From: Pseudisothecium myosuroides
Lineage: Eukaryota > Streptophyta > Bryopsida > Hypnales > Lembophyllaceae
Reading direction: 5' to 3'
Length of the DNA stretch: 64,000 nucleotides
Assembly: GCA_951799445.1 (NCBI GenBank)
Contig: OX637293.1
Span: 23,870,001-23,934,000, forward strand
The notes under the pieces are model-generated. The model had not been told where the DNA came from and ran no database searches. It saw nothing but the letters and a program-made list of their open reading frames with translations. A program made the position numbers and the translations under genes. Position 1 is the stretch's first letter. Every line of letters begins with the position of its first letter. Of the stretch, positions 1,762-55,184 are shown in pieces.

Positions 1762-2492
1762 GTAATCAATTGCAGCCCTCAAATTGACTTCACACACACT
1801 CATTGCTCATTGTCAGACAATCTTGAATACATGACCTGTGTATATACTTGTCAGGAGCTCGTGAACTCCTTTGCTCTTCGCTTGTTGATCACAGATTACG
1901 AGTCAAATTGATGTGGTGAGCTTCGTGAATCTATGGTTGACCATGACGTCACTGACCACACAGCAGAAGCTCTAACTTGAACTGATTGTCCTTGATCTCA
2001 CGCTTCGAGGTTTCACGCATTACTGTGTTTGTAAAGATGGAGAATATTCTGCATAACTGCATGTAACGAGACCACACAAATTACGGTTATTCTTGCTTGA
2101 TCAAGGATGTGTGAAACGTACTACTGTTGTGTTAAGTTTCTGAAAGGGGATTAATCTGGCGTTGCCTGAGTCATGTGAAGGTTTCTGTATGTGAGTGCTG
2201 TGAGATGAGGATGGAGACGATGAGGAATGTCAGAATGAGGGTTGTCATACTCAAAGTATGTTGCTGTACTGTTTGCGGGTTCAAAGTGAAGGAGTACGTA
2301 GAGCTTGGCTATATATATAGCGAAAATGGAGAGAGGGGAGAGTATTTCAAGACCAAAGCCGTGGTTTTGAACTCTCAGTGGGAAAAGATTGTTGGTTGTG
2401 GATGCTGTTTAATGTACTCTAACCTTTCTGCAACCCTGTAATTGCCTCGTTGAGTTGATGGATTGCTTACTAGGTGAACGCTTATGATGCAG
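1762..2492 (+). other. Probable 5' UTR intron of P450 gene 1
   Basis: The donor CCCCAG/GTAATC at 1762 and the acceptor GATGCAG at 2492 are conserved in the other two copies (31633-32378 and 44572-45784). The ATG of the P450 follows 9 nt after the acceptor. Placing an intron here explains why the conserved leader and the conserved start are separated by about 730 bp full of stops. This is inferred from splice-site conservation only. Confidence 0.5.
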
Positions 2493-2501
2493 GTTAGCGA
2501 T

Positions 2502-5500
2502 ATGGCGTTGGAGGTTGTATGGCTGTTCACAGCGTTGATAATCCTGGCAACAGCTTGCATTGGAGTGTTCAAGGGCATCCTCGGTGACAATGTTCTATTC
2601 GGACGAGGACCTCGTGACCTCGTTCTTGACCGCTTGGCCAGGTTCTTCTCACTTCATCACTCACTGTTGTTTGGGTCAATGAGGGTTTCGTTCTCCCGAT
2701 GGTTGTTTTGCCTTCACAGTAGGAAACTCTGTCCCCTGGCTTTCAGCTATTTTGAGTGATTTTCTAGTAGAAGGTTAAATTTCCAATTTCAATCTTTTGT
2801 TCCATTTTTCAAGAGGATTCCACCGCACTAACTAAAGTACGGGTTGTTTGATGCCGTATGGATAAGTTCAAACATGGATTGTTTGAATGCCTTATGAAAA
2901 AGTCATGAGTTTTCACAATCTTGTTCTGTGATTGATAAAACCGTATGCAGGCTTTGATTTTTAGTTCTTAAGCATTGCCTTCGTCCGTAGATTCTGGATC
3001 TAAACATTTACTGATGGCAAAGGATCTTGTATGAGAGAAAGTTTTGCTTCCGTAACTCTTTCCGTGCTTTACCTTTGGAGACTTGCGATTAGCTAATCCC
3101 CACCATTTTCATGTCTCATTTTCTGATTGTTTGGGTGCTTAGATATGGAGATCCTTTTACCCTTTCATTGATGGGCAGAACGTGCACGGTGATCAGTTCG
3201 CCTGAAACCATCAAGTTTGTTCTTTCGACTGCCCACGCATCTTTTCCAGACGTCTATCCCGTGCAGTATAGTCGACTTCTCAGTCCGGAGAGGTTTGAGG
3301 GCAGAAGGCACCCCCAAATCAGAAAAATTATACTTTCTGCTGCCTCAGGAGATGGGGTTCAGAAGTTGGTCCCATTCATCAGCTTGTTTGCCGAGAAAAC
3401 TGTCGAATCTTGGGAGAATCAAGCTGTGGTGAACTCGGTGGAGGAGTCGCACAAGGTCAGTGTTACAACGTTCTCTTGGAAGACATTCAACGTTTATGAA
3501 CTATACTGCTCTCTTGATTATATGATTAAGTGCTCAAATTTCACCCAGTTCTTTCAAATTGTACGTTTAGCGCAAATTCTTATCGTGTGGATTTTGTGCG
3601 AAAATGGTCATCAAAGATATTGGGAAGGAGCAGGACGGCCTTCTACGTCCTCTAGCTTTCAATTCCATGATTGTAAAAATTACAATGGCTGTAATACTGA
3701 AAGTTGTTTAGGTAAAAATGCGGTACTAAGGTAGAATTTGTGCACTTGGCTTTGTGCACTATTAAGGACCGAGTGGCACGTATGAGGGTGCGGATAATGT
3801 GTCTTAGATCTGTCTTCCCTATTCTGAGAACTTGCTTGACTTAACTCGGCATAACATGCTATGTAAGTTTTTCTCTAAGTTTTTCTCTGCAATGCATACA
3901 GCTTTTAGTTTTTCTCTTCAACAGAACAGTTATGACAGTGAAAGCTCACTGTTCATTGTTAATGTTCATCATCAGATGATAATCCAGGATGATATATGTA
4001 GACTGACCCCTTTGATGGTTGTTTGAGAGATCTATCGATGATGTTACTCATACTGAAAATTTGAGCTGTCTGCAGTTTGCATTTAATGCGGGGATGCACA
4101 TTAATTGGACGAATGTCAAACCGGGCTCCGAGGAAATGGACCAGATGAGGAACGAAATCTCCCGCGTTGGAGAAGGTCTCGCGGCTTTACCCATCAATTT
4201 TCCTGGATTGACTTTCCACAAGGCGATGAAGGTGTGTTTTCCGGAGCATTTCCAGCATTTTTAGTCATTATTTAGTCTTGTAATGTTCCGGATACTGAAC
4301 CAAGTCGAACCGGAGGTTGCTGCAAAATTCGAAGACAATATTGAGTCTGCAAGTCATGAGTCGATCTTAGAATATCTTATTGTTTCCATGGAGGGGCTCC
4401 TGAACATTGCATAATATTCAGCAGAAATTAGTATTCGAGGTTGTTTGTGTGTCTGATGCACTTCTTGGTTTCATAGAGTTTGAAAACTTAAAGTAGGCTT
4501 TGATATCTTAAGTTGAGCTTCTTTGAGGGCTATATACAAATGCGTCACCCCTTTGATACATGTCTCTGTGATTTTTTGACATGACTGTAGCTTAAAAATT
4601 TCCAGCATGACCAAATTGGAATGTTGATGAACCAACTGTGTTGCCCACCTCATGGAATTGTTGAATCAGGCCAAACAAGCTCTCGTATCCCGCATTCAAA
4701 GTGAAATCTCAAGGAGGAGGAAAGCTGGTATCCAACAGGATGACATATTGAATGCTCTTATGAGCATGGGGGAGGATGAATTTCCAGATTACGATATATG
4801 TTGCGTTATGGTGATTATGATGTTTGCTGCTTCTGTTACAGTTTCTGCTTTGATTCCTTGGGTTCTAAAATACCTGGATGACTATCCAGAAGTACGAAAA
4901 CGTATACAGGTGAAATCTTGTTTTCTGATAGATTTATGATGAGATGAAAGCTTTCTAGACTTTACTAATTCCATACTATGCAAATTCTGTGTTTGTGGAC
5001 AGTTTTTTTTACTTGCTTTAAAAGAAGTATGGCTGTAAGTGATAACTGATACCTTCATTTCCTAACCTAGGTAGGGAATTGCTATTTTGCCTACAACATA
5101 ATTCAAATCGTTACAGTAAGTGTTCAGTTTATAGTCTGCATTCTATGTAAAATACTGTTATTTGGAAATTTGCACTTACCTTTAAATCTTATAATAGCGT
5201 AGTTCATTAATTGTTGATCAAGTCTATTGAATCTGTTTTTCTACTTTTAGAGTTGTCTAATGCTTTGTTCTCATTTTTGGCGTGTCACAATTGATTGAAT
5301 GTTGGTTGAAGCTCTTTTTATTCTTAAAATGGGGCAAACACCTTAATACCTTAGTTTGTAGCAGAACTTGTTTACGAATTGGTGAACAAATTTGAAGAGG
5401 TCTGGACTAGTTTTTGTGCGCAAACAATTGAGCTCAAAGTATACCAGCAAGTTAATGGGTTTTGTAGTATAACAACAAAGTTTTTCATGTTGTACATCTG

Positions 5501-8224
5501 CGGAAATTTCATTTCAATTGTGTGCATAGAGTACCTGCTCTTATGAAGGCATACACAACAAATTTTGCTTAATAATTTCTTTCAATTTTGCAAACAATTT
5601 CATTCAGGAGGAACAAGATAGTCTTCGGCAAAAGATGACTGAAGACAAGTCATTGACCTGGTTCAAGCCCAAGAGCAGCATGCCTTACACTCTACAAGTA
5701 ATTTGCTTTGGCCTATCATGCCTGTAATTGTAAATAGAAAATTTATTCATGAAATATTGCAATGATGATGATGTTTCTTCTTCAATTGTTGTTTGAATGT
5801 TATTATTGGTATTGCTTAAATTGTAGAAGTAGTTTAAGTTTGCTTTTTGTTGTAACATTCTTTAGTTACTTCATGGAATCTGAAATTTGGCAATTTTTGC
5901 TACTAATTCTACAATCATTGGGATATTGTATAGGTTATCCACGAGATCCTGAGGATTGAATTTTTTTTTACATTTCCCCGGCAAGCCACCAAAGATGTTG
6001 ATTACAATGGTAAAGGTTCCCTTCTATCACTTGTCTTCACTTGCTCTTATATGGTCAAATTTGTCAAATTAGAGAAAGGGCTCTAAACTAACGACTAAAG
6101 CGGCTTGAGATGACTTTTTCAAATTAGAAGGGGATTGGGACCCTCATTTGATCTTTGTCTTTATTGCAAATCTATATGTATCCTAGATTGTAGAGCTTTT
6201 ACCTTCAATTAGGCAACTAAAAAACCAAGCCTATAAGCATTTGAAAGTCCTAAATCTTGGCACATTGAAATCCACCAAAAGAACGAATATGAGGTTATTA
6301 ATCTTCAATTTTTATTAGTTCCTTTAAAGGATCAATTAATTTTTCTTTTGGGCTAAAATTAATTATATTTTAATTGAGCAATTGGATGGTCTAGTCTCTC
6401 AAGGACTAAAGTTCAAATTTTATTTTTTGAAGTATCAATCATAATTTAAAAAGCTAGTGTATTTAGAGCCAATAGAAGTGTGAAGGTTATTGTGTTAGGC
6501 ATTTAGTTTTGACTTCATTTTAATATCTTCTTGGTTTTTGAATATGTTTCACTTCCTCACAGGTTTAGTCTTCCGCAAAGGTTCTTATGTGTGGGCATCA
6601 GCAACTTCTCTTCATTATGATCCAAAATACTATCCAAATCCCAAGGAGTTCAATCCATCCAGATTTGTTGTATGTGCATGACCATGTTTTTACAAATGAA
6701 CCAAAAAATGCAATTTTATTTTTTGAATTTTACTGAACTATGTTGATTTGAGATTGTTCTCTTATGAAGCTTACTCTTGTGAAAATCATGTCATGTTCCA
6801 ACACACAATTTAGCTAGAATTAGTGGCATTAGTGTCTAATGACCAAGACTAATTTGGTGTATACTCTCCAATTGAAAGAAGGCATTATATCCACTAGATA
6901 ATGTTTTTAAACATTCATTTTATTTAAACTCACTTTCCTTAGGTTGGGTTGTACATTAATTATGTTTAAACTCACTTTCCTTAGGTTGGGTTGTACGTTC
7001 ATTATGTTTAAACTCACTTTTCTTAGATTGAAATAGTTTCAGTGCAGTACATATGATTATATGTAGACTTCACTCAATTTCATGCAAATGGCGGTGTTTT
7101 AAATTATCCTTATATTTGAATTTAACAAGCTATTTGCAATTTGAATCATATTTAGAAATGCCACAAGAATTTCTTTCAATTTTATTCATTTTTTCCTCGT
7201 TTCCAATTTTTTTGGATAGTGTGCAAGAAATGTTTTGTTAAGTCTAATCGTGGATTGCTGGAATTTGCTGCAGGAGAAGCCTAAGCCAAATACTTTCATG
7301 CCTTTTGGCCAAGGTCCACATTTATGCCCTGGAAGTGAACTTGCACTGACAAAGACAATGTTCATCATCCATCATCTTGTCACAAATTACAGGTTAGAGT
7401 ACAAGCATTGATTATATACATCAAAATAAATAGTAGTTTCAATAGTTTCAATGTTTGTCTTCCAATATAATGATTATGCACAATGAAATGAACACTAGTT
7501 GCAATGTTTGTTTGTTACTTCAATTGTCATTTAGAATATGAAGACTAGCTAACCTTGAGAATTGGGAGGACGTACCGATCAAGAAGATTATTGTAAATAA
7601 CATTTGTCAAGTATGTTCTAAAACTCATTTCCTTGAATTTTAAACATCTAGATTTTTGCTCAAAGGGGTCACATTGAATTGAAGGGTTATGAAATATATC
7701 CTTTTTATGAAAAAATAAAATAAAAAAGACACTAGAGAATGCTTGCTTGAATAAACTAAGCTCTAAGATCCACACTTGGTTTAATTTGTACGTGAAATGT
7801 TAGACCAATTGTGGGTCTTAAAGCTTCATTTGTCCGAGAAAATATTCTACTCGTGAAAGTAATGAGATTGTCTTGAATCTTGAGCCTACCAGTGCGATTT
7901 TGGAATCAAATTTTTTTAAACCTTTTCTGAAAACGTTCATTTGTAATATGCCACCATGCATTTTCTTTCTATATTTTCATAACCAAGGAAGTAGATGAGC
8001 ATTTGTTGTAGGTAAATTCTAATTGTGGAAGCTCTTAAGCCATGAAATAGAAAAATTTGAAATATGGTGGATGTATGTTTATGTAATTGAGGAAATTAAA
8101 ACTATGTGTATGTTATGCCTATTGCAGTTGGGAAAGGTGTGGACCTCTTAAAGGAGTGACTCAACATCCAGTTAGAAAGCTTGTAGCTTATCCAATTCAT
8201 TTGGTCAAAAGGCGTGTGAAATGA
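2502..8224 (+). CDS. Cytochrome P450, CYP85 clan, gene 1 (nine exons, intact)
   Basis: Exons: 2502-2755, 3143-3455, 4076-4231, 4670-4909, 5608-5697, 5934-6009, 6563-6669, 7274-7392, 8128-8224. They join into 1452 nt without a stop (483 residues, a usual P450 length). Every intron starts GT and ends AG. An N-terminal hydrophobic anchor (about residues 3-23) points to the ER membrane. Clan marks are LPINFPG followed by FHKAMK (end of exon 3), SLTWFKPK with MPYTLQ (exon 5), K-helix EILR (E355, R358), FNPSRF (406-411) and the heme loop [14 protein letters not shown] with Cys430. This clan oxidises terpenoids, sterols, brassinosteroids, gibberellins or ABA; I cannot assign a family or substrate. 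Two oddities: the I-helix reads FAASVTV where AGxDTT is usual, and exon 1 has no proline-rich hinge. The exon 1 donor (GA/GTGATT) is the least certain junction. Confidence 0.88.
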
Positions 8225-8640
8225 CATGTTGAATTATTGGTCTTGATTGGGAAGATATATTGTATGAGATAAGCTTTGGGGTAAGCGCCCATATTGACCT
8301 AAATATCAACCACCTTTATATGAGTACAAATAGTGAGAGAAGATATGATAAATATAGTGAGAGACAATATGATAAATATAGTGAGAGAAGATATGATAAA
8401 TATAGTGAGAGAAGATATGATAAATATAGTGAGAGAAGATATGATAAATATAGTGAGAGAAGATATGATAAATATAGTGAGAAGATATGAAAAACTATTA
8501 GCAAAGGAAGTCATTGAACATGTGTGTCATCCTATGAATCCACCATCTTATATGTTCATTGTATTATTTTCAACCTATGAATATGATGAGGCAACACAGG
8601 ACATGTGATTTCCTTGTGCAATAATGCCAATTATCCATTC
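8225..8640 (+). repeat. 3' flank of P450 gene 1 with a 24-bp minisatellite
   Basis: At 8328-8488 a 24-bp unit containing GATATGATAAATATAGTGAG is repeated six to seven times, with one unit changed to CAATATG. The homologous 3' flank of copy 2 (about 37765-37795) has a single unit, so the array expanded in gene 1 only. The rest of this flank, to about 8640, matches 37790-37930, which marks the downstream edge of the duplicated block. The open frames through the array in three phases come from its length being a multiple of three. Confidence 0.85.
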
Positions 8641-11163: not shown

Positions 11164-11187
11164 TGTGTACTACTTTTCATCAACGGT
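11164..11187 (+). repeat. 24-bp direct repeat, left of the Rep element
   Basis: The block starts TGTGTACTACTTTTCATCAA and ends at 11187. It recurs at 15223-15246 with one mismatch in 24. The two blocks sit just outside and at the inner end of the left arm, in the same orientation. Confidence 0.75.
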
Positions 11188-11207
11188 CCACAAAAGAGAT
11201 TGTGGAA

Positions 11208-11222
11208 TGGCAGTTACTGCCA
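11208..11222 (-). repeat. Terminal palindrome of the Rep element, left arm
   Basis: TGGCAGTTACTGCCA gives a 7-bp stem around one central base. It starts 12 nt inside the outer end of the arm. A short hairpin next to the 3' terminus is a usual stop signal in rolling-circle transposons such as Helitrons; that role here is inferred. Confidence 0.6.
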
Positions 11223-11262
11223 CTTTACAGTACATTGTGTGACACTTTGCGCGTTTCATACT

Positions 11263-11355
11263 CAAAATTTAAGATATTACAAAGCCTTTAAAATTTCAGA
11301 TTTCACAAACTCCTGAAAATTTCAGATTTCACTAAGTCCTGGAAATTTCAGCATT
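11263..11355 (-). repeat. Sub-terminal tandem repeats of the Rep element, left arm
   Basis: Three to four imperfect units of about 30 bp each carry an AAATTTCAGATTTCAC-like core. The mirrored copy is at 19600-19692. Such repeats often serve as binding sites for the element's own protein, which is inference here. Confidence 0.6.
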
Positions 11356-11472
11356 AACAGCATCAGAAGGAAAATTGTAAGCAAAACCACTCAAAATGCG
11401 TGTTCCCAAAAAAAAAACATTTGTAAAAGTTATATGAAATGTATAAAATTTTGCATGGCAAGAACTACACTG

Positions 11473-12601
11473 TCAAGTCATTCGCAACGTCGCGGTCTCC
11501 ATACACCAGTGGAATGTACATAGCTGGACAGCTTGTAACAAGTGTGTGATGTGCTTCCGTTTCCATGATGTCATGATGAGGAAGCGGATCGTCCTGAGAT
11601 CCGTCAAGAACAATGACGTTGTTCGGTTCATGAACCGGTGGTAGTGTGGTACGTCATCTGCAAGGGAAACATCACAAGAAAGACAAATGAACTTAGCAAA
11701 GTGCAAAGAGGACTAGAAACAAAGATGAAGGCAAAGTTGTACAGAAATAGAAAACAAGGAGAAAAAAAAGGAAAAAGATAAGAGAAAATTGGAAAATACC
11801 TAGAATGTTGTACTCGTGGGTTGCACCTTCACGTGCCTCATCCAGCTCTACAGCAAGCCGCTGTTGGCCCAGGTTTGCTAAGCGAGAACCTGGGTTGGTG
11901 TGCTCGAAGAAAATTTGGGTGACATCACTCATTTCTAGGGCTTGAGGATTCATCATGCACTTCCAAAGGGAAGCGACTCTGCAAAACTCCATGCCACTCT
12001 GATGGACAAGCAGAACCCAAGAAGCAGATGGTATGTACTGCCCGGATTGGAGCATAGGCAAGAGAGTTCCTGGAAGCGTGTTGCCAAGTTGTTTTTGCAG
12101 TTTATATTTGCAGTAAGTAGCAGCTCTCTCGATGAGATTAGTATGAGTGAGCACGACCCGGTTTTTTGCAAAAGGAGTACCGTGTTTAATGTACTCCTCT
12201 ACACTTTCCTTGAGCTGTGCATCACTGACGTTTCTGTGCACACATTCAAAGTGGTCTTCTCCCTTGTCTTTGATACAGTAGCCCAGCATCCTAATGAAGG
12301 TGTGCACTCCAGTATTACAAAGCGCTTTTGTGAGGATGTGGTGTCCCACAGGTGCTTTTCTGGGATTGTCCCATTCAAGATGCTCTTTTATTTTCTTGCT
12401 GACCATGCCAGCAGAAGAGGTCAGCAGTCTGCAAATCATCTGCAAATGCAATCTGTTCATATTGCTGCCACGTTCAATTGAGCAAAGCCTGGAGATACAG
12501 TGTTTGTCCAAGAACTCTTCCATTTTTCCTATAAACTCTCTAGGAATGTCACTGCTACCGATAGAGATTGTCACATTGATGTCCATTTCTTTTGGTTGCA
12601 T
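11473..12601 (-). CDS. Rep/HUH endonuclease-like protein, left-arm copy
   Basis: Mirror image of the gene at 18354-19482, with the same translation. The main exon runs 12601 to 11800. A probable intron (GT at 11799, AG at 11658) precedes a short last exon, 11657 to 11473. Motif positions are given under the right-arm copy. The gene points outward, away from the spacer, so the two copies are divergent. A 179-codon frame on the other strand (11942-12481) is its antisense shadow. Confidence 0.7.
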
Positions 12602-12897
12602 TGGAGCCCGTATTCTGGGAGCTCTTTTAGGAGCATTTTCTGTTTCAAGATAGTTTTTTTCAACGCCGATTTTTTCAGCATTGTCTTCTGCTTTGAAGCA
12701 TAAGCATGTTTGGTAGTGTCACGAATTGAAGTCTTCATTGGTTCTTGGGAGGGGACCACATTTTCTTTGGGGTCTGCTGTCATTTGGCCTTTCCGAGCAG
12801 ACCCCTTCAAAATCTGAGACATCGGTGGTGCCAGTTCTGCAGACACGCATAGATTCATGAGAACTACACGATTAACAAATTCATGAGAACTACACAA
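12571..12897 (-). CDS. Possible N-terminal part of the Rep protein, left-arm copy
   Basis: A basic, lysine-rich frame of 108 codons overlaps the start of the main Rep frame in another phase. The Rep frame also stays open upstream of its first Met, over about 45 codons including ETENAPKRAPRIRAP. The two could be joined by splicing, or the gene may contain an old frameshift. The mirror copy is at 18058-18384. Confidence 0.35.
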   Translation of the reverse strand: MCSSHEFVNRVVLMNLCVSAELAPPMSQILKGSARKGQMTADPKENVVPSQEPMKTSIRDTTKHAYASKQKTMLKKSALKKTILKQKMLLKELPEYGLQCNQKKWTSM

Positions 12898-15199
12898 TTA
12901 ACAAAAGGAACAAGTTCAAAAAGTTGGAAGGAATAAGGCCGATGGTGCAACAAGTCGGAGCAGGTCAAAGACATACCTGCGCAAATCACTCCACCAACTA
13001 AGAACGACACCACCACCCGAGAAACAATCTTTGTCTGGACCTGCTAAGTTCCCTCGCCGTCCGAGCAAGTTGAAGACATACCTACACACGTACCTGCAAA
13101 CAGACAAAATTCACCAGCAAATCACTCCACCTCGGGGGGATTAGTGTGTAAAAAAAATAAGGGGATAGGTGCAAACACTCCAAGTATTTTTTAGGGGGGT
13201 ATTTTTTTTATTTAAAAAAAAAAACATGCTATCATTATATAATTTCCTACTTTGGATTATTAGAGAAGGGGCTTGCATACTTATAATTCTAAATTGATAT
13301 GAATAAATGATATGATAATTTAGATTAAAAAAAAATTCTACTACTGTTTTTGTCCGACATTAAATTTCTTTCAAGCTTTTTTTTCTTTCCCCCACTAATG
13401 ACTACTTACAACTAGAACTTAACAGAAAAGTGTAGTCAATACTACTATTGTATCTTCTTTAAAAATTGTCAATGACACTCATTTACTAGGAAGGTATCAT
13501 ATTATTGAATGCTATCAATTGAACTTTAGGTTTAGGTCCTTTTTACATGATTAATATGAATGATATAGAGATTGTTTTTTTATATCAACTTTACTTTAAC
13601 CTGCATTGTTTGATTCAATGTACATGTCTTCACAATATGCACAATAATATGTAAGAATTATTTCTGCACTATCATGGTAGTATGAAATCATAGTATGAAA
13701 TAGAATGTAAGAAATATTTTTGTACAATCATGGTAGTATGAAATGGTAGTATGAAATAGAATGTCCTCATTGTATTTACACGCACAATGAATGAAAAAAA
13801 ATGTGCATATCATGTCTAGTTATGGAGACACAAACAAAACTGAGCTTGTACACCTAAACTCAAACATGCAGTACTGTAATTGATGGAAAAACTAGAAAAG
13901 AATTGTAGTCTTCCACATGAGAGGGAAATGTGAGGAGAAATGCATTTCTGTAATTCAAAAAGTCCCCTACATTTTTGCACCTACATTGCAGTAGACACAC
14001 ACACTTGGATCAATGGAAATGGCCAAGAAGAACATGAACATGCAAGTACACACATGGGCAGTATACAATACATCATGCACAGATTTGAAGAGCACTGAAG
14101 CGTACGTAAGCACATGCAAAGGAGAGGGAAGTGAAATTCAATCCCACCTGAGAGCTTGTACAGCAACGTCACAGAACTCGATGGGACAGTGTAACCCAAT
14201 TACTGCTGCAAGGCTGCAGGGCCTGGAATAGGAACCGCCAATTTTCAAAATTAAATGACAGCCACCTAAAGCCAGCCAACCTCTATTGTAGAAATTAGTA
14301 AAGTCTATAAAGTTATTGAACACTTTGAATATGCCACTCACAAGGCAACAACATTTAATACTTTTGGCCAAAAAACAAATAAAAAGAGGGGTATCCTAGG
14401 TCTAATTTTTTTCTAATTGGACCTATTTTTCTATACCCTATAGTAGTTTGAAGACATGGCATGGAATTTTTGTACCCTATAGTATAAAAAACCAAATTAT
14501 AATTTTTATCTCAAATGTTTTTTAGGCACCTTATCATTTGTTCACACGTAGTTTTCTACTGCTACCGCTCACTTCCCCCTCCTGAGCACTCCACCAACCA
14601 AAAATGGCCAAGCAAATCACCCCGCATTAGTCAAATGAAGCCTCTACTCCTGGTGGTGCCCTTCCGTCAATTTAGTTTCAATTTGCGATCGTACTCCCCC
14701 TGGAACCCAGCAAACTCAAAAGGTTCGAGTTCCTAATTTTAAATTAAAAAACAGAAGCAACGAAAATAGAATCAAACCTCAACAGGTCCAAAACTTGAAG
14801 GAGTTGCTGCCGACTCCACATCCAATTGGTGTGTCCTTCAGCAGGTCCTCCAAACTTGAAGCAACAACAGAACTTAGGAGCTGCTGCCGCTCCAAATCCG
14901 ATTGGCGCCAGAACGGGAGCTCTAATTCTAAACAAGAGACCAGCCTTGATTAATAAGAAGACAAAGAGCACCGAACCCTATCTCCGTCAACATCAACGGA
15001 CAAGATATTACCATTGGGTGGAGGTCCATCCACGGTAGGCAGGTAGGTATCATTTTCAAAAAATTTAATCGACAGTCCAAAGATCCCGGATTTGTCGGCC
15101 ATTTTTTCCACATCCATCGACGGGGGCAGGGGGGTTACATATGTTTACCAATTAATCAACGGTTCTAATTCCTTAGCCCGGGGGGGGCCTTTCACAAGG
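12898..15199 (-). other. Non-coding 5' region of the Rep element, left arm
   Basis: This holds AT-rich DNA with GC-richer islands at 12916-13107 and 14744-15113. The second island has two related blocks of about 45 bp around GGCAGCAGCTCC. Several GT/AG signals could delimit leader exons, but none is certain. Frames of 60 to 77 codons here have no recognisable content. The segment 13140-13345 is related to 62575-62775. Confidence 0.45.
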
Positions 15200-15222
15200 T
15201 GTGCAACCAATTTTTGGTACAT

Positions 15223-15246
15223 TGTGTACTACTTTTCATCAATGGT
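15223..15246 (+). repeat. 24-bp direct repeat at the inner end of the left arm
   Basis: Partner of 11164-11187, with 23 of 24 positions equal. It covers the exact point where homology between the two arms stops (15226). The right arm has no such block at its inner end. Confidence 0.75.
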
Positions 15247-15726
15247 TGTGCTCTGTGTGATATCCATACCTTAAGTTTGTTTGTTTGTTTTGGTACTTTG
15301 AGATCTTCGGACCGTGCGTCCCCCCCAGTGGCGAGCTTGGTATCCTCGGAAAGCCTTCAGCGAGGAGGGGTGCACGGGCTTTACTTTATGGCGTTTGGAG
15401 CTGGAATGGGAAAGTTATGGATTTTTGAGTTATTTTTGGTTCTAAAAAATATAAAAAATTATTTTTACTTTTCTTTTGGCTGTGGCAACGGTAAAGGGCA
15501 CACTGGTAATATTTGGATTAATAGGACTGTCTAATCCTGGCATCAACTTGCTCCCGTTTGCAACCAAAAGTGTTCTCCATTACTAAAGATGGAAAGTCAA
15601 CAGAGATTCTGGAGCAGAATATCCTAGTAAAATACGAGCCACAAGACCTCGCAGGATCACATGCAAACATTCTTCAAAGTTCTAAAAATACTCGGCCTTA
15701 CTTAGCATGCCCAAACCTGAACAATC
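15227..15726. other. Spacer between the two Rep-element arms
   Basis: About 500 bp of unpaired sequence. The left half (about 15276-15500) is a copy of repeat D, whose other copies are at 730-1200. The right half (15540-15726) has no recognised content. The promoters of the two divergent Rep genes would be in the arms on either side. Confidence 0.6.
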
Positions 15727-15755
15727 ACAATGTATCAAAAATTGGTTGCACACCT

Positions 15756-18057
15756 TGTGAAAGGCCCCCCCCCCCGGGCTAAGGAATTAGAACCGTTGAT
15801 TAATTGGTAAACATATGTAACCCCCCTGCCCCCGTCGATGGATGTGGAAAAAATGGCCGACAAATCCGGGATCTTTGGACTGTCGATTAAATTTTTTGAA
15901 AATGATACCTACCTGCCTACCGTGGATGGACCTCCACCCAATGGTAATATCTTGTCCGTTGATGTTGACGGAGATAGGGTTCGGTGCTCTTTGTCTTCTT
16001 ATTAATCAAGGCTGGTCTCTTGTTTAGAATTAGAGCTCCCGTTCTGGCGCCAATCGGATTTGGAGCGGCAGCAGCTCCTAAGTTCTGTTGTTGCTTCAAG
16101 TTTGGAGGACCTGCTGAAGGACACACCAATTGGATGTGGAGTCGGCAGCAACTCCTTCAAGTTTTGGACCTGTTGAGGTTTGATTCTATTTTCGTTGCTT
16201 CTGTTTTTTAATTTAAAATTAGGAACTCGAACCTTTTGAGTTTGCTGGGTTCCAGGGGGAGTACGATCGCAAATTGAAACTAAATTGACGGAAGGGCACC
16301 ACCAGGAGTAGAGGCTTCATTTGACTAATGCGGGGTGATTTGCTTGGCCATTTTTGGTTGGTGGAGTGCTCAGGAGGGGGAAGTGAGCGGTAGCAGTAGA
16401 AAACTACGTGTGAACAAATGATAAGGTGCCTAAAAAACATTTGAGATAAAAATTATAATTTGGTTTTTTATACTATAGGGTACAAAAATTCCATGCCATG
16501 TCTTCAAACTACTATAGGGTATAGAAAAATAGGTCCAATTAGAAAAAAATTAGACCTAGGATACCCCTCTTTTTATTTGTTTTTTGGCCAAAAGTATTAA
16601 ATGTTGTTGCCTTGTGAGTGGCATATTCAAAGTGTTCAATAACTTTATAGACTTTACTAATTTCTACAATAGAGGTTGGCTGGCTTTAGGTGGCTGTCAT
16701 TTAATTTTGAAAATTGGCGGTTCCTATTCCAGGCCCTGCAGCCTTGCAGCAGTAATTGGGTTACACTGTCCCATCGAGTTCTGTGACGTTGCTGTACAAG
16801 CTCTCAGGTGGGATTGAATTTCACTTCCCTCTCCTTTGCATGTGCTTACGTACGCTTCAGTGCTCTTCAAATCTGTGCATGATGTATTGTATACTGCCCA
16901 TGTGTGTACTTGCATGTTCATGTTCTTCTTGGCCATTTCCATTGATCCAAGTGTGTGTGTCTACTGCAATGTAGGTGCAAAAATGTAGGGGACTTTTTGA
17001 ATTACAGAAATGCATTTCTCCTCACATTTCCCTCTCATGTGGAAGACTACAATTCTTTTCTAGTTTTTCCATCAATTACAGTACTGCATGTTTGAGTTTA
17101 GGTGTACAAGCTCAGTTTTGTTTGTGTCTCCATAACTAGACATGATATGCACATTTTTTTTCATTCATTGTGCGTGTAAATACAATGAGGACATTCTATT
17201 TCATACTACCATTTCATACTACCATGATTGTACAAAAATATTTCTTACATTCTATTTCATACTATGATTTCATACTACCATGATAGTGCAGAAATAATTC
17301 TTACATATTATTGTGCATATTGTGAAGACATGTACATTGAATCAAACAATGCAGGTTAAAGTAAAGTTGATATAAAAAAACAATCTCTATATCATTCATA
17401 TTAATCATGTAAAAAGGACCTAAACCTAAAGTTCAATTGATAGCATTCAATAATATGATACCTTCCTAGTAAATGAGTGTCATTGACAATTTTTAAAGAA
17501 GATACAATAGTAGTATTGACTACACTTTTCTGTTAAGTTCTAGTTGTAAGTAGTCATTAGTGGGGGAAAGAAAAAAAAGCTTGAAAGAAATTTAATGTCG
17601 GACAAAAACAGTAGTAGAATTTTTTTTTAATCTAAATTATCATATCATTTATTCATATCAATTTAGAATTATAAGTATGCAAGCCCCTTCTCTAATAATC
17701 CAAAGTAGGAAATTATATAATGATAGCATGTTTTTTTTTTTAAATAAAAAAAATACCCCCCTAAAAAATACTTGGAGTGTTTGCACCTATCCCCTTATTT
17801 TTTTTACACACTAATCCCCCCGAGGTGGAGTGATTTGCTGGTGAATTTTGTCTGTTTGCAGGTACGTGTGTAGGTATGTCTTCAACTTGCTCGGACGGCG
17901 AGGGAACTTAGCAGGTCCAGACAAAGATTGTTTCTCGGGTGGTGGTGTCGTTCTTAGTTGGTGGAGTGATTTGCGCAGGTATGTCTTTGACCTGCTCCGA
18001 CTTGTTGCACCATCGGCCTTATTCCTTCCAACTTTTTGAACTTGTTCCTTTTGTTAA
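15756..18057 (+). other. Non-coding 5' region of the Rep element, right arm
   Basis: Mirror of 12898-15199. It contains the 11-C run at about 15765-15775, the paired 45-bp blocks near 16060-16165, and related phrases GGTGGAGTGATTTGC at about 17826 and 17960, each followed by a GCAGGTA splice-like word. Leader exons are possible but not provable from sequence alone. Confidence 0.45.
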
Positions 18058-18384
18058 TTGTGTAGTTCTCATGAATTTGTTAATCGTGTAGTTCTCATGA
18101 ATCTATGCGTGTCTGCAGAACTGGCACCACCGATGTCTCAGATTTTGAAGGGGTCTGCTCGGAAAGGCCAAATGACAGCAGACCCCAAAGAAAATGTGGT
18201 CCCCTCCCAAGAACCAATGAAGACTTCAATTCGTGACACTACCAAACATGCTTATGCTTCAAAGCAGAAGACAATGCTGAAAAAATCGGCGTTGAAAAAA
18301 ACTATCTTGAAACAGAAAATGCTCCTAAAAGAGCTCCCAGAATACGGGCTCCAATGCAACCAAAAGAAATGGACATCAATGTGA
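18058..18384 (+). CDS. Possible N-terminal part of the Rep protein, right-arm copy
   Basis: A lysine-rich frame of 108 codons, in a different phase from the Rep frame that starts at 18354. Upstream of that Met the Rep frame itself stays open back to a TGA at about 18234. An intron or a frameshift between the two phases is possible. The composition (basic, Ser/Pro-rich) would suit a nuclear-targeted N-terminal extension. Confidence 0.35.
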   Translation: MCSSHEFVNRVVLMNLCVSAELAPPMSQILKGSARKGQMTADPKENVVPSQEPMKTSIRDTTKHAYASKQKTMLKKSALKKTILKQKMLLKELPEYGLQCNQKKWTSM

Positions 18385-19482
18385 CAATCTCTATCGGTAG
18401 CAGTGACATTCCTAGAGAGTTTATAGGAAAAATGGAAGAGTTCTTGGACAAACACTGTATCTCCAGGCTTTGCTCAATTGAACGTGGCAGCAATATGAAC
18501 AGATTGCATTTGCAGATGATTTGCAGACTGCTGACCTCTTCTGCTGGCATGGTCAGCAAGAAAATAAAAGAGCATCTTGAATGGGACAATCCCAGAAAAG
18601 CACCTGTGGGACACCACATCCTCACAAAAGCGCTTTGTAATACTGGAGTGCACACCTTCATTAGGATGCTGGGCTACTGTATCAAAGACAAGGGAGAAGA
18701 CCACTTTGAATGTGTGCACAGAAACGTCAGTGATGCACAGCTCAAGGAAAGTGTAGAGGAGTACATTAAACACGGTACTCCTTTTGCAAAAAACCGGGTC
18801 GTGCTCACTCATACTAATCTCATCGAGAGAGCTGCTACTTACTGCAAATATAAACTGCAAAAACAACTTGGCAACACGCTTCCAGGAACTCTCTTGCCTA
18901 TGCTCCAATCCGGGCAGTACATACCATCTGCTTCTTGGGTTCTGCTTGTCCATCAGAGTGGCATGGAGTTTTGCAGAGTCGCTTCCCTTTGGAAGTGCAT
19001 GATGAATCCTCAAGCCCTAGAAATGAGTGATGTCACCCAAATTTTCTTCGAGCACACCAACCCAGGTTCTCGCTTAGCAAACCTGGGCCAACAGCGGCTT
19101 GCTGTAGAGCTGGATGAGGCACGTGAAGGTGCAACCCACGAGTACAACATTCTAGGTATTTTCCAATTTTCTCTTATCTTTTTCCTTTTTTTTCTCCTTG
19201 TTTTCTATTTCTGTACAACTTTGCCTTCATCTTTGTTTCTAGTCCTCTTTGCACTTTGCTAAGTTCATTTGTCTTTCTTGTGATGTTTCCCTTGCAGATG
19301 ACGTACCACACTACCACCGGTTCATGAACCGAACAACGTCATTGTTCTTGACGGATCTCAGGACGATCCGCTTCCTCATCATGACATCATGGAAACGGAA
19401 GCACATCACACACTTGTTACAAGCTGTCCAGCTATGTACATTCCACTGGTGTATGGAGACCGCGACGTTGCGAATGACTTGA
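18354..19482 (+). CDS. Rep/HUH endonuclease-like protein, right-arm copy
   Basis: Main exon 18354-19155, probable intron 19156-19297 (CTAG/GTATTT to CCCTTGCAG), last exon 19298-19482. Counted from the first Met, the order matches a Rep-type HUH nuclease: a strand NVTISIG (9-15, motif I), ERGSNMNRLHLQ (43-54, motif II with His52 and Gln54), and GYCIKDKGED (107-116, motif III with likely nicking Tyr108 and Lys111). About 150 residues follow, including RVVLTHTNLIERA and GQYIPSASW, which are not a superfamily 3 helicase (no Walker A). Such proteins nick single-stranded DNA and start rolling-circle replication. Absence of a helicase argues against Helitron and for a Replitron-like element or a lone Rep of CRESS-virus ancestry. 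The last-exon frame is basic, while another phase there reads as an acidic tail, so the true end is unsure. Confidence 0.72.
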
Positions 19483-19599
19483 CAGTGTAGTTCTTGCCAT
19501 GCAAAATTTTATACATTTCATATAACTTTTACAAATGTTTTTTTTTTGGGAACACGCATTTTGAGTGGTTTTGCTTACAATTTTCCTTCTGATGCTGTT

Positions 19600-19692
19600 A
19601 ATGCTGAAATTTCCAGGACTTAGTGAAATCTGAAATTTTCAGGAGTTTGTGAAATCTGAAATTTTAAAGGCTTTGTAATATCTTAAATTTTG
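19600..19692 (+). repeat. Sub-terminal tandem repeats of the Rep element, right arm
   Basis: Units of about 30 bp around GTGAAATCTGAAATTTTC occur three to four times with decay toward the 3' end. Mirror of 11263-11355. Confidence 0.6.
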
Positions 19693-19732
19693 AGTATGAA
19701 ACGCGCAAAGTGTCACACAATGTACTGTAAAG

Positions 19733-19747
19733 TGGCAGTAACTGCCA
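19733..19747 (+). repeat. Terminal palindrome of the Rep element, right arm
   Basis: TGGCAGTAACTGCCA, a 7-bp stem around one base, ends 12 nt before the outer border at 19759. Confidence 0.6.
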
Positions 19748-19769
19748 TTCCACAATCTCAGATTGCAAC

Positions 19770-20000
19770 AATGAACGGGGAGTACCGGCATTTAGTTACA
19801 AGTTAGCCGGTTGAAGTCTAGAATTGCCTAATTGATTTCAAAATCTTCGGAAAAAACCCGATCATTTAAGAGGAAAATAAGAGAATATTTTGTATTTTCT
19901 TAAGGCGTAGCTGAGAATATACTCCAAACAACCGGTTGGTCCACGAAAATTTAGGATCTTAGTTGGCTAAAATAAAGTTTCTCCCCGGACTGTGCATTGC
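19770..20000 (-). mobile_element. Mutator-like miniature element, copy 1
   Basis: The inverted counterpart is at about 39970-40190. The ends read ATGAACGGGGAGTACC and, at the other side, CTCCCCGGACTGTG. Imperfect flanking words GATTGCAAC and CATTGCAAA would fit a 9-bp target duplication. The left end abuts the outer end of the Rep element at 19759. Confidence 0.55.
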
Positions 20001-31086: not shown

Positions 31087-32387
31087 ACCCATCTCATCAC
31101 TTCAAAAGTTCTTGTAATGAATGAAAGACTCCCCCAAATCATGTTGCAGTGCTAGTGTGGAGAGGGTACCCAGTGCATCCTATTCAGGAATGTTATATGC
31201 AGCAGGCCAGGCACAAGCAATTTTTTCAACGGTGTGTGTTTCTCAGTCCTGGACCCAAGCTAGGTCCCTTCCGTTGCAGTCGTTGAGTTCATCGCCACTA
31301 AATTTTCTCTCTATGGGAGGGGGCTGTAAAAGCGATCTGTCTCTAAAAACGATCTGGTAGATTTTGCCTCTAACATGTATCAGGAGTGTACATTTCAGGA
31401 GGGGATCGCTTTTAGAAACCACTGTGTTTTCAACTTCAAAAATTCATAACTAATTCCATGAATGTCCAAAAAATATGAAACAACTTGGGTTAGATGCCAA
31501 TTCCATTTTTCTTACCACATAAGTTTACTGAAAATTGTTCTGAGGAGTTTAGCTTCCCCCAAAATGCAAATCAGCTGGTAAAGGGTCGCTTTTACAGCCC
31601 CTTCCCATAGTATCGATCTGTGCGTCACCCAGGTAATCGATCAGGCTGCTGGACTTATTCAATTTGCAGCTCTCAAATTGATTTCACAAACACACTCATT
31701 ATCAGATAATCTCGAGCACATTATCTATGATCTTGTCGGAAGCCTGTGAACTCCTTTGTTCTTCGCTTGTTGATCACAGATTAATACTCAAATTGATGTG
31801 GTGAGTTTCGTGAATCATTAGTTGACCATGACATTGACCACACAGACGATCCTTTCGAACGGCAGCACTTCAACTGATTTTCCTTGATGTCGCGCTCTGG
31901 GGTTTCACGCATTGCTGTGTTTGTAAAGATGGAGAATAGTCAGCATAACTGCATGCAACGAGATCTCACAAAATGCGGTTATTCTTGCTTGAATGATGTA
32001 TGAAACGTTCTACTGTTGTGTTAAGTTTCTGAAAGGAGATTATGGCGTTTTCTGAGTCATGGGAAGGTTTCTGTATGTGAGTTTTGTGAGATGAGGATTC
32101 ACATGATGAGGAATGGAATGAGAGTTGCCACATTCGGAATACGGGGGAATGTTGCTTTACTGTTTGGGGGTTTGAAGTAGAACATTACTTAGGGTTTGGC
32201 TATGGCGACAGTGGAGAGACTGAGAGGGGAGTATCTGAAGCGGAGCCGTGGTTTTGAACTCTCAGTGGGAAAAGATGGTTGGTTCTGGAAGTAGTTTACT
32301 GTAGTTTAACCTTTCTGCAACCTGTACTTGCCTCGTTGAGTTGATGGATTGCTTATTAGGTCAAGGCTTTGGATGCAGGTCAGCGAT
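31087..32387 (+). promoter_or_regulatory. Upstream region of P450 copy 2, with 5' UTR intron
   Basis: Homologous to 1490-2501 and 44320-45793. The TATA position is altered (no TATAAATA). The 5' UTR donor CACCCAG/GTAATC is at 31633 and the acceptor GATGCAG ends at 32378. A miniature element (31312-31609) splits the leader. The part 32171-32455 is identical to 45577-45861 and reaches into exon 1. Confidence 0.55.
31312..31609. mobile_element. Family C miniature element in the leader of P450 copy 2
   Basis: Starts TATGGGAGGGGGCTGTAAAA and ends TTTTACAGCCCCTTCCCATA, inverted repeats of about 25 bp with a possible TA duplication. The sequence CTCTCTAG that it interrupts is unbroken in gene 1 (near 1733) and gene 3 (near 44543), so both empty sites are in the window. 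Confidence 0.75.
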
Positions 32388-35300
32388 ATGGCGTTGGAGG
32401 TTGTATGGATGCTCACAACGTTGATAATCCTGGCAACAGTCTGCATTGGAGTGTTCAAGGGCATCCTCGGTGACGGTGTTCTATACAGACGAGGAACTCG
32501 TGACTTTCTTCTTGACCGCTTGGCCAGGTTCTTCTCACTTCATCAGTCACTGTTGTTTGGGACAATGAGGGTTTCGTTTTCCCAATGGTTGCTTTGCCTG
32601 CACAGTAGGAAACTCGGTCCCCTGGCTTTCAGCTATTTTGAGTGATTTTCTCAGTAGAAGTTTAAATTTCCAATTTCCATCTTTTATTCCATTTTTGAAG
32701 AGGATTCCACCGCACTAACTTAAATACTTGTTTGATACCGTATGGATAAGTTAAAATATGGATTTTTGAATATATTATGAAGAGGTCATGAGTTTTCACA
32801 ATTTTGTTCTGTGAGGGAATAAGACCTTGTGCAGGCTTTGATTTTTAGTTGTTAGGCATGGCCTTGGTCACTAGATTCTAGATCGTCACATTTACTCATG
32901 GCAAAGGATCGTGTATGAGAGATTGAAGGAATCATTCTCTGACTGTTTGGGTGTTTAGATATGGAGATCCTTTACCATTTCATTGATGGGCAGAACGCAA
33001 ACGATAATCAGTTCGCCTGAAGTCGTCAAGTTTGTTCTTTCGACTGCCCATGCATCCTTTCCAGACGTCTATCCAGTGCAGTATATTCGACTTCTCAGTC
33101 CGGAGAGGTTTGCGGGTAAAAGGCACACCCAAATCAGAAAGGTTGTACTCTCTGCTGCCTCAGGAGATAGGCTTCAGAAGCTGGTCCCTTTCATCAGCTC
33201 CTTAGCCGAGAAAACTGTCAAGTCTTGGGAGAATCAAGCTGTGGTGAACTCGGTGGAGGAGTTGGAAAAGGTCAGTGGTACAACGATTTCTTGGAAGACA
33301 CTCAACGTTTATGGACTGTAATGCTCTCACGATTATATGATTATTCGCCCAGATTGTTCACCCAGTTTGTTCCATGTCTCCGTTAAGCGCAAATTCTCAT
33401 ATTCTTAGCATGTGGTTTTGCGCAAAAATGGTCACCAAAGAGCAGCACTGCCGTCTATGTCCTGTAGCTTTCAATTCCATGATTGTGAGAATTACAATGG
33501 CTGTAATATTGAACGTTGTTTTGGTAAAAATGCGATAATAAGGCAGATTTTGTGCACATGGCTTTGTGCACTTTTGAGGACCGAGGGGCACATACGAGGG
33601 TGCGGATTATGTGTGTTAGAAATGTCTTCCCTATTCTGAGAAATTGTTAGACTTGATCGACTCTCATTTTAAATCGACATAACATGCTGTGTATCGTTTT
33701 TCACTAAATTTTTTTCTGCAATGCTTACAGCTTTTAGTTTATCTCTGAAAACAGAACAGAAAGCTCACTGTTCACTGTTAGTGTTCATCTTCAGCAGATA
33801 TTCCACGCTGATATATGTAGACTGACACGTTTGATGGTTATTTGATGGATTGATGAAGGTACTCATACTGAAAATTTTTGAACTGTCTGCAGTTTGTGTT
33901 TAATGTGGCAATGCACATTATTTGGAGGAATGTCAAACCGGGCTCGGAGGAAATGGATCAAATTAGGAACGAAATCTCGCGCCTTACAGAAGGTCTGGTG
34001 GTTTTACCCATCAATTTTCCTGGATTCAGTTTCCACAAGGCGATGAAGGTGTGTTTTCTAGAGCATTTCCAGCAAAATTTCCAGAATCGCATATTATATC
34101 CGTAGGTTGCTGCAAATTTCGAAGACAATATTGAGTCTGCAAGTCACGAGTCGATACTAGAATATCTTTTGTTTCCATGGAGGGGCGATTCAAGTTGCAA
34201 CTAGCTCATGAACTTGCTCATAATAATCACCAGAGATATAAATATTCGAGGTTGTTTGTGAGTCTAATTATGCACTTCTTGGATTCACAGAGTTTGAAAA
34301 CATAAATTAGGCCTCCATATTTTAAGTTGAGCTTCTTTGAGGGCTACAGTACATACAAATGCTTCACCTTTTGGATACATGTCTCCGTGTTTATTTGGCA
34401 TGACTCTAATTTAAAAATTTCCAGCATGACAAAATTGGAATGCTGATGGACCAACTCTGTTGCCCACCTCATTGAATTGTTGAATCAGACGAAGCATGCT
34501 CTCGTATCCCGAATTCAAAGTGAAATTTCAAGGAGAAGGAAAGCTGGTATCCAACAGAATGATGTACTGAATGCTCTTATGAGCATTGGGGAGGTTGAAT
34601 TTCTGGATTACGATATCTGCTGCATTATGGTGATTGTGATCTTTGCTGCTTCTGCTACAACTTCTGCTTTGATTCCTTGGGTTCTAAAGTACCTGGATGA
34701 CTTTCCAGAAGTAGGCCAACGCGTACAGGTGAAATCTTGTTTCTTTGATAAATTGATGATGAGATGACAAGCTTTCTAGACTTTTCTATGCAAATTCTGT
34801 ATTTGTGGACTGTTTTTTTTCACTTGCTTTGAACAAGTATGGTTGTAAGTGATAACTGATAACTTCATTTCCTAACCTAGGTAGGAAATTGGTACTTTGA
34901 CTGCTACTGGAAGATAAAACTTGGGCAGATGATGGGGAAAGGTTTGAACAATGCAAGGTGACTCAAATCTGGAGGAGGGTTGTGCGAGAAAGTGGTTTGA
35001 CAGCACCTACTTGCCGCTAGTTCCTGTGGCTTAATACTGTCAATGACCGTCTCTTATGACCCTCCTTCGGATTTGAGTCACCTAGTACGTTTCTGTCTTG
35101 ATTTTTAGTTGTTAGAGATTAGATCACCACAATGACAATTGGTCCTTCAAAGATCCGTGACTCAAATCGTAACAGTAAGTGTTGAGTGTTTCGAGTCTGC
35201 ATTCTATATAAAATAGTGTTATTTGGAAGTCTGCACTTCCCTTCAAATCTCATATTAGCTTACTTACTATTTCATTTCATTCAGGACGAACAAGATTGCC

Positions 35301-37658
35301 TTCGCCAAAAGATGACCGAAGACAAGTCATTGACCTGGTTCAAGCCCAAGACCAGCATGCCTTACACTCTGCAAGTAATTTGTTTTGGCCTATGCCTGTA
35401 ATTGTAAATAGAATATTTATTCATGAAATATTGCAATGGTGATGATGTTTTTTCTTCTTCAGTTATTGTTTGACTGTTTTTGCTGGTATTGCATGAATTG
35501 CGGAAGCGGCTTAAACTGTTGTTTACAGCAGTATCCTCTTCTCATTTCATGGAATCTGAAATTTGGCGATTATTGCTACTAATTCTGCAATCATTGGGGT
35601 AACCTATAGGTTATCTAAGAGATCATCAGGATTGAATTTCTTCTTGTATTTCCCTGGCAAGCCAACAAAGATGTTGATTACAATGGTAAAGGTTCCCTCT
35701 CATCACTTGTCTTGACTTGCCTCATATATGTTCAAATTTGTCACATTAGAGAAAGGGTTCTAAACTAACAATTAAAGTGGCTTGAAATAACTTTCTTGAA
35801 CTAGGAGGGGGTTGAGACTCTCATCTGATTTTTGTCTTTATTTCAGATTTATATGTATTCTAGATTTTAAAGTTTTTAGGTTCAATTAAGCAGCTAAAAA
35901 ATCAATCCACTGAGCACTTGAAAGTACTAAATTTTGGCACATTGAAATTTGCCAAAATTACAAATATGCGGTTGTTATTCCTCAATTTGTACTAGTTCCT
36001 TTAAGAATCAATGATTTTCTATTTGGGGCTAAAATCATTGTTAGTAGAGTATTTGGAAGGTAGTCTTTCAAAGACTAAAGTTTGAAAGTTACTTTATGAA
36101 GTATTAATTGAAATTTAAAATGCTATTGTGCTCAAAGTCAACAGGGTTGTGAAGTTATTGTATTAGGCATTTAGTTTTGACTTTGTTTAGATATCTTTTG
36201 GTTTTTGAATATGTTTCACTTTTTCACAGGTCTAGTCTTCCGCAAAGGCTCTTATGTGTGGGCATCAATAACTTCTTTTCATTTTGATCCAAAACACTAT
36301 TCAAATCCCTGGGAGTTTGATCCATCCAAATTTTTTGTATGTGCACCATGTTTTTACAATCCAAGAACGCAATTAATTTTTTGAATTTTTAAGTTGACTA
36401 GACCTATGTTGATTTGAGATTGTTCTCTTATGAAACTTACACTTGTGATAGTCATGTTATATTCAAACTACGTAGTTGACACAACTTGGCTAGAATTGGT
36501 GGCATTAGTGTGTAATGACCAAGTTGGTGGGTATTCTCTAGTTGTAAGAAGGCATGATGTCTACTAATGGTTCCATGCGTTCATTATGTTTAAATTCATT
36601 TTGCAATTAGAACCATATTCAACAATGCCACAAGAATTTATTTTCAAATTTCTTTAGTTCTCTTCATACCAAATGTTCTACTGAATCTAATCTTTGACTA
36701 CTGAAATTTGGTGCAGGAAAAGTCTAATCCAAATGCTTTCCTACCTTTTGGCCAAGGTCCACATCTATGCCCTGGAAGTGAACTTGCACTGACAATGACA
36801 ATGTTCATCATCCATCATCCATCATCTTGTCACAAATTACATATTAGAGTACAAGCACTAATTATGCACATTGAAATGAACAATAGTTTCAATGTTTTCA
36901 TTGTTTGTCTTGCAATATATTGATTATGCACAGTGAAATGAACAATAGTTCTAATGTTTGTTTGTTATGTCAGTTGTCATTTAGAACACAAAGACTAGCT
37001 AACCTTGAGAATTGGGTGGTCAAGAAGATTATTGTACATAATGTCAAGTTTTAAAACTCATTTCCTTGAATTTTGAACATCTACATTTGTGTTCAAAGGG
37101 GTCACATTGAGTTGAAGGGTTATGAGTTTTATTCTCAGCATTTTTGAACACCCAAATTAAGACATTAGAGAATGCTTGCTTGAATAGACTAAGCTTTAAG
37201 ATCCACACTTGGTCTAATTTGTATATGACAGGTTAGAGTGGTTGCAGATTTTAAAGCTTCATTTGTCTAAGTAAACATTCTACTAGCAAGAATAACATGA
37301 CTAACTTGAAACTTGGCCTAACATTATGATTTTGAAATCAAATGTTTTTTAAGCCTTCCTTGAAAAAGTTCATTCGGGATGCATTATTGTGCATTTTTCT
37401 TCTACATTGTAATAACCAAGGAAGTAGATGAGCATTTACCCATAGATAAATCCTAATGCTGGAAGTCTTTAGGCCTTGGAATAGAAGAATTTGAAATATG
37501 GTGGATATATGTTTGTATAATCGAGGAAATTGAACTTATATGCATTTTATTTGTATTGCAGCTGGGAAAGGTGTAGACCTGACAAAAGAGTGATACAATT
37601 GCCAATTAAAAAACTTGTAGATTTTCCAATTCGTTTAGTCAGAAGGTGTATGACATGA
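32388..37658 (+). pseudogene. Cytochrome P450, CYP85 clan, copy 2 (inactivated)
   Basis: All nine exons can be placed: 32388-32641, 32959-33270, 33893-34048, 34489-34728, 35285-35374, 35610-35685, 36230-36336, 36717-36842, 37562-37658. Damage: exon 2 is 1 nt short (CCTTTACC near 32970 for CCTTTTACC), which shifts the frame; codon 35616-35618 is TAA two codons after the exon 6 acceptor, just before the Glu of ExxR; exon 8 has a 7-nt duplication in the CATCATCCATCATC run near 36815; the exon 8 donor GT has become AT. The I-helix reads FAASATTSA, and the heme loop [10 protein letters not shown] is still present. The protein would stop soon after exon 1, so this is a recent pseudogene. Confidence 0.88.
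34956..35083. mobile_element. Miniature inverted-repeat element in intron 4 of copy 2
   Basis: Starts AGGTGACTCAAATCTGGAGG and ends CGGATTTGAGTCACCT: terminal inverted repeats of about 24 bp in a 128-bp unit. The orthologous element is in gene 3 at 48480-48614, and gene 1 has none, so the insertion came before the split of copies 2 and 3. Confidence 0.7.
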
Positions 37659-50984: not shown

Positions 50985-51333
50985 GAAGTTGAATTTTTAG
51001 TTTCACTAGGAAAAGGTGTTATATGAGATAGAATAAGCTTTGGGATAAGCAAGTGAAAAAAGATTACAACACATCTAGCATGTAATGCTTGGCTACTGTA
51101 TAAGTAAATCATTAATCTAGACATGCCTATTGCTCGATTAGAAAAAATGGTTCAAGGCAGCATAACTTTTGATCCAGGTACTCGGTCGGAAAAAAAATTA
51201 TATTCCTACTAAAGAGATATAAGTTTATACCTTTTTTGAAATTTTGTGAACATTCGACCAAAATTGACTTCATAAGAACCTACTTGGATTTTCAATCACT
51301 CTTTCAATGGACAATTGGCCTTTAAGGGGTTAA
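50985..51333 (+). mobile_element. 3' flank of gene 3 and partial family B element
   Basis: From about 51130 the sequence matches the right half of 58063-58613 (AAATTATATTCCTAC, then AAGAACCTA) and ends GGCCTTTAAGGGGTTAA at 51333. The left end was not found. Confidence 0.5.
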
Positions 51334-53781: not shown

Positions 53782-53849
53782 TAATCATATGTGAAATGTA
53801 TATATGTTTTTCTTACTTATTCATTTAGAATTTTGTATTATCAAACTTG

Positions 53850-55109: not shown

Positions 55110-55184
55110 ATTGCTTCAAGTGTTTATATTGAATGTTGAATTCTATATATTTTGTTCTTCTAATTGATATTTGATTTGATTTGT

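Follow-up and report, generated by a model that had tools for sequence, protein, structure and literature searches.

How two nearly identical Rep-bearing elements came to lie head to head is the question raised by a 64,000-nucleotide stretch of the Pseudisothecium myosuroides genome (hereafter the window; G000:C7:23870001-23934000 in a 388-Mb assembly). Self-BLAST of the window recovered arm A (11196-15226, 4031 bp) and arm B (15726-19759, 4034 bp) as an inverted pair with 99.901% identity over 4034 columns (15726-19759 against 15226-11196) and a 499-bp spacer (15227-15725), confirming the first-pass annotation of a near-perfect pair of 4.03-kb arms around some 500 bp. The remaining repeats of at least 500 bp in the window are 75-91% identical, and some short tandem repeats reach 93-97%, so the arms are indeed far more alike than the other repeats, as had been remarked. 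Base-by-base alignment of the arms showed one substitution and a 3-base difference in a G/C run at 15180 (8 versus 11 bases); the run had already been noticed, whereas the base change, a C in arm A (15217) and a T in arm B (15735) when read in Rep sense, had been missed. Both differences lie less than 50 bp from the spacer, and the match between the two arms breaks off at the same element positions, outside which the flanks differ.

Replitron identity of the two arms

The features of the arms are as follows.

11196..15226, minus strand: arm A, complete Replitron copy of 4031 bp with a minus-strand Rep, its 5' end toward the spacer, empty site on C2
15726..19759, plus strand: arm B, complete Replitron copy of 4034 bp with a plus-strand Rep, its 5' end toward the spacer, empty site on C2
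15218..15226 (arm A, minus strand) and 15726..15734 (arm B, plus strand): 5' terminal CACAATGTA
11231..11239 (arm A, minus strand) and 19716..19724 (arm B, plus strand): subterminal direct repeat CACAATGTA near the 3' end
11693..12601, minus strand: Rep open frame of arm A, its protein identical to that of arm B
18354..19155, plus strand: stretch of arm B that codes for Rep, containing Replitron_HUH and Replitron_C, the frame remaining open to 19262
19156..19297, plus strand: predicted GT-AG intron of Rep in arm B, 142 bp, with a putative last exon at 19298-19482
19733..19747, plus strand: 3' hairpin TGGCAGTAACTGCCA of arm B
19753..19759, plus strand: seven 3' bases CAATCTC in arm B, present in both arms and absent from both targets

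The 302-aa frame of arm B, which is the same in arm A, matched PF21859 Replitron_HUH (E 2.3e-21, 76.9 bits against a cut-off of 28.5) and PF21860 Replitron_C (E 7.1e-7, 30 bits against a cut-off of 27), bearing out the earlier assignment to a Rep-type (HUH) element. The HLQ and YCxK motifs are both present, and Y108, C109 and K111 are invariant in 19 aligned Rep sequences (the window protein and 18 of the 21 relatives from a protein search); some relatives (P0001, P0007, P0016) lack the first H of HLQ. Because the ATG at 18354 is a valine codon in the related copies on C3 and C5, the true start of Rep probably lies upstream. The structure model of Rep (pLDDT 58.7) has a ferredoxin-like N-terminal part, and Foldseek with this low-pLDDT model listed circovirus Rep and ISDra2 TnpA amid many unrelated ferredoxin-like folds; neither appeared in the VIA-align top 50, and the fold search is unspecific. 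Searching by sequence for a solved HUH protein yielded one weak, unrelated match. No relatives of Rep were found in viral contigs, and no Rfam or tRNA matches were obtained.

Replitrons were described in 2023 (Craig 2023, via review PMC10741241). The arms resemble them in an HUH nuclease with Replitron_HUH and Replitron_C and in the absence of terminal inverted repeats, no inverted word of at least 8 being found between the first and last 200 bp of the element. Read in Rep sense, the 9-bp CACAATGTA stands at the 5' end of the element and again 44 bp before its 3' end, a length within the short direct terminal repeats (5-11 bp) expected of Replitrons, and the native length without a nested element, about 2.6 kb, is likewise fitting. 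A difference is the subterminal position of the second CACAATGTA, which precedes a hairpin. Similar end motifs, matched by a loose pattern, occur at many other Replitron loci of the genome. CAATCTC follows TTCCA, the last 3' bases common to four subfamily members; the copy on C5 has the first three of the seven bases and that on C3 none. Each arm is a complete Replitron.

The ancestral site on C2 and the two junctions

The locus has an old paralog on C2 (37954050-37955250; L073, L074), in which the left flank, the outer spacer parts and the right flank form one continuous stretch, the matching pieces being 84-89% identical to the window. Both arms, the MITE (19769-19994) and the dispersed repeat (15258-15510) are all missing from this segment, on which the insertion points of arms A and B are 238 bp apart. 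As C2 holds the outer spacer parts contiguous without the arms, they are old host DNA, and the segment serves as an ancestral reference that gives a before-and-after view: one ancestral empty segment, and two near-identical insertions with unlike junctions. The arms are separate insertions into older DNA. A second MITE copy in the window (39984-40194), considered as an empty site, does not extend as an empty site would.

11164..11187: target duplication of arm A, outer copy, 24 bp, keeping the base found on C2
15223..15246: target duplication of arm A, inner copy, with one derived mismatch, its first four bases coinciding with the arm end
15227..15725: spacer, ancestral at 15227-15257 and 15511-15725 (on C2), with a dispersed repeat at 15258-15510 that is not on C2
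19769..19994, plus strand: hAT-like MITE, its 3' duplication CATTGCAA being the ancestral target on C2 and its 5' duplication cut by arm B

The arm A target is present once on C2, which has all but seven of these bases, and twice in the window (20-24 bp including CACA, with one mismatch), and 15 bases at arm A, CAATCTCTTTTGTGG, do not occur in the C2 target, seven of them being common to arm B. For arm B, the ancestral site on C2 reads AATCACATTGCAAAC, and the element entered at CACA^TTGC with a duplication of 0-1 bp. The MITE is older than arm B, because arm B cuts its 5' duplication while its 3' copy equals the ancestral target. In the wider MITE family (best 40 of 197 candidates scored, 30 read), 19 of the 30 copies carry exact 8-bp duplications. 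Two other readings of these junctions were discarded. The first took about eight bases past each 3' end as fold-back filler (P 0.008 for a random 8-mer), and the bases at arm B proved to be the target duplication of the MITE; the second proposed a 15-20 bp duplication at arm B (P 0.0015), a 49-base filler and a later MITE, and C2 shows both the repeat and the 49 bases to be ancestral, and the MITE to have come first.

The first-pass annotation had entertained a single event, namely a very recent inverted duplication or a head-to-head product of rolling-circle transposition. Near-perfect mirror symmetry favours such an event, as does the finding that, of the Replitron places scored with the Rep part as query (40 of 59 candidates), no two apart from the arms lie within 200 kb of each other. 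The continuity of flanks and spacer ends on C2, the unlike junctions (a duplication at A, none at B) and the exact stop of the repeat at the element ends together exclude an inverted segmental duplication of one insertion and a one-step head-to-head product, which makes a single event the least probable of the accounts considered. Head-to-head rolling-circle pairs, an apparently exotic product, need no further explanation here: the locus is a well-resolved, ordinary insertion pair of a known, little-studied transposon group.

Helitrons are also HUH elements and encode a RepHel protein with a helicase. Like the arms, they carry a hairpin near the 3' end; the three arm frames searched against Pfam gave no match to a helicase. 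Two adjacent Helitrons have been reported from maize (PMC2267711), head-to-head according to its abstract and head-to-tail according to its text, a case in which two elements inserted side by side in separate events; those neighbours are dissimilar to each other, whereas the arms here are near-identical.

Mis-assembly, in which one real copy was falsely mirrored, has also to be weighed. Foldback reads are a known long-read artefact and, according to PMC12870357, may contain some 2 kb between their mirrored segments, so the spacer alone does not exclude this origin. Several observations speak against it: the two 2-kb outer flanks are unrelated (best match E 0.11), the spacer is not palindromic (best inverted self-match E 3.9), the arms differ at two places, and both junctions fit the independent empty site on C2. 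An artefact would require complete copies to fall precisely on two ancestral sites, with some 20 bp of target duplicated at one of the two. Judged from the assembled letters, it is very unlikely.

CACA stands at the junction in four of the five copies examined (A, B, C3 and C10), the evidence being the duplication's second copy for A, C3 and C10 and the empty site for B; the fifth copy, on C5, has TATA, with its 19-bp repeat 37 bases upstream. Six more 5' ends found with a loose motif carry, before ATG, TACA twice and GACA, AACA, CCCA and TGCA once each, so that CA alone recurs, in a motif that itself favours CA. Upstream of CACA, A has a repeat of 20-24 bp, C10 one of 26 bp without mismatch and C3 one of 14 bp with a single mismatch, the last with a score at the 99% level of chance, and B has none; comparison with an empty site covers A and B. 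Target duplications of Replitrons are given as 2-8 bp in review PMC10741241, a range not treated here as defining, from which both the 20-24 bp of arm A and the 0-1 bp of arm B differ.

Common descent of the arms: local hop or gene conversion

Both arms carry the same nested element.

13132..14586: nested high-copy element in arm A, 1455 bp, with an exact 9-bp duplication CACTCCACC on both sides
16369..17823: corresponding nested element in arm B, its position derived from that in arm A by symmetry

Given its 9-bp duplication and its inverted ends, this element may be Mutator-like. Its terminal branch is 4.6% in a tree with five relatives; the Replitron copy on C3 does not contain it, and that on C5 shows no match to it. 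With arm A as genome query (best 40 of 420 candidates scored), the two arms alone were near-identical, followed by the copies on C3 (92% and 87%) and C5 (83-88%). A third Replitron copy with the nested element, which at full length should rank high, was not found among these 40, nor was a genome-wide burst of the arm copy found among the scored candidates. In the three-way alignment of arms, C3 and C5, 72 of 1869 sites are changed in the arms alone, indicating that the arms share a long private history; the branch leading to the arms since the C3 split amounts to 3.85%. Within the Rep stretch, the private changes comprise 8 synonymous and 21 non-synonymous ones and no stop, and the stretch compared has one stop each in C3 and C5.

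The shared nested element, the private changes and CAATCTC, which is common to both arms and found in neither target, imply that one of the arms is the source of its partner or that both descend from a single source now lost. Since a third copy was not found among the scored candidates, a local hop is the simplest account. We therefore favour, with a probability of roughly two in three, a pair made by two separate insertions of one Replitron lineage in opposite orientation and about 240 bp apart, one arm being likely the product of a local hop of the other that is too recent for substitutions. The divergence of the arms, one substitution in 4031 sites (95% interval 6e-6 to 1.4e-3), is far below the 3.85% of the arm branch, so recency explains the near-identity directly. 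With C in C3, C5 and arm A, the T of arm B is the derived state, which is compatible with either arm as parent.

The hop may have proceeded as follows. Rep, an HUH nuclease with HLQ and YCxK, would nick the 5' end of the element beside CA/CACA, and the strand would be copied and then joined at a CA/CACA target, while the 3' end would be set by the hairpin and a few bases of read-through would have carried CAATCTC along. A broader proposition, which we put forward tentatively, is that Replitrons hop over very short distances, with one arm descending directly from its neighbour some 240 bp distant, joining at CA/CACA, 3' read-through as a tag of parentage, target duplications from none to about 26 bp, and inverted neighbours that are then perhaps kept alike by gene conversion.

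Palindromic arms can be homogenised by gene conversion, and such palindromes, like the pair here, are large inverted repeats with nearly identical arms; the first-pass annotation had named very recent copying and continued correction between the arms as two options, and this pair of options is upheld. Under the second, the insertions would be old and the arms held identical by conversion between the inverted copies, the nested element having perhaps been copied from arm to arm. Two observations pointing this way run contrary to a recent local hop: the 20-24 bp duplication of arm A has one mismatch, as against one difference in 4031 sites between the arms, and the substitution lies 10 bp from the arm edge (P about 0.005). 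Both arm differences, moreover, fall within 50 bp of the spacer edge, where conversion reaches least. The mismatch and the edge substitution give a hint of older arms kept alike by conversion, although they are single sites and were noticed post hoc. Fisher tests of duplication against arm mismatches (P 3e-4 and 0.019) were withdrawn, as they had counted the MITE duplication cut by arm B and the refuted arm B duplication.

On the other side, arm B postdates the MITE and no finding points to a great age for it, the Rep stretch is free of stops in the arms as opposed to one stop each in C3 and C5, and the seven shared 3' bases require a common source regardless. Here, in contrast to the palindromes kept alike by conversion, each arm is a transposon insertion in its own right, with its own junctions, and we consider conversion possible but rather unlikely as the main cause of the identity. 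On the preferred reading of two insertions with a local hop, the locus holds a young 4-kb inverted pair that could feed hairpin RNA or rearrangement.

Other Replitrons and neighbouring features

A member of another Replitron family on C10 (L059; C10:10766055-10766855 plus flanks) is flanked by a direct repeat of 26 bp that is exact and has CACA at its end; about 19 bases separate the element's 3' end from the repeat. Eight places (L062-L066 and L068-L070, on C217, C123, C49 twice, C6, C105, C10 and C7) carry a Replitron-like Rep with 69% identity to that of the window; their surrounding sequence is 99.3-100% identical through the 3.7 kb fetched, two places differing by one 78-bp tandem unit more or less, and Rep contains stops in L062, the one member read. 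As the homology fills the fetched sequence, a larger repeated unit may be involved. A Replitron relative with 40% identity (L001, 2638-3436), the sole genome_contigs match, lies on a 5-kb contig that is binned in a Cyanobium MAG and is probably a eukaryotic contaminant.

Within the window, the spacer repeat at 15258-15510 (roughly 250 bp) is related to 837-1169 and has many partial matches genome-wide. Three diverged copies (about 78-91%) of a region with cytochrome P450 exon matches occupy 1904-8353, 31781-37787 and 45189-51030, one of four frames scoring above the PF00067 cut-off and three just below, and the Replitron pair sits between the first two. Further along, 53807-54239 and 55180-55551 (about 430 and 370 bp) are long, mutually related palindromes with 84-85% self-complementarity, possibly foldback elements, and a 118-bp palindrome at 57139-57256 is 87% self-complementary.
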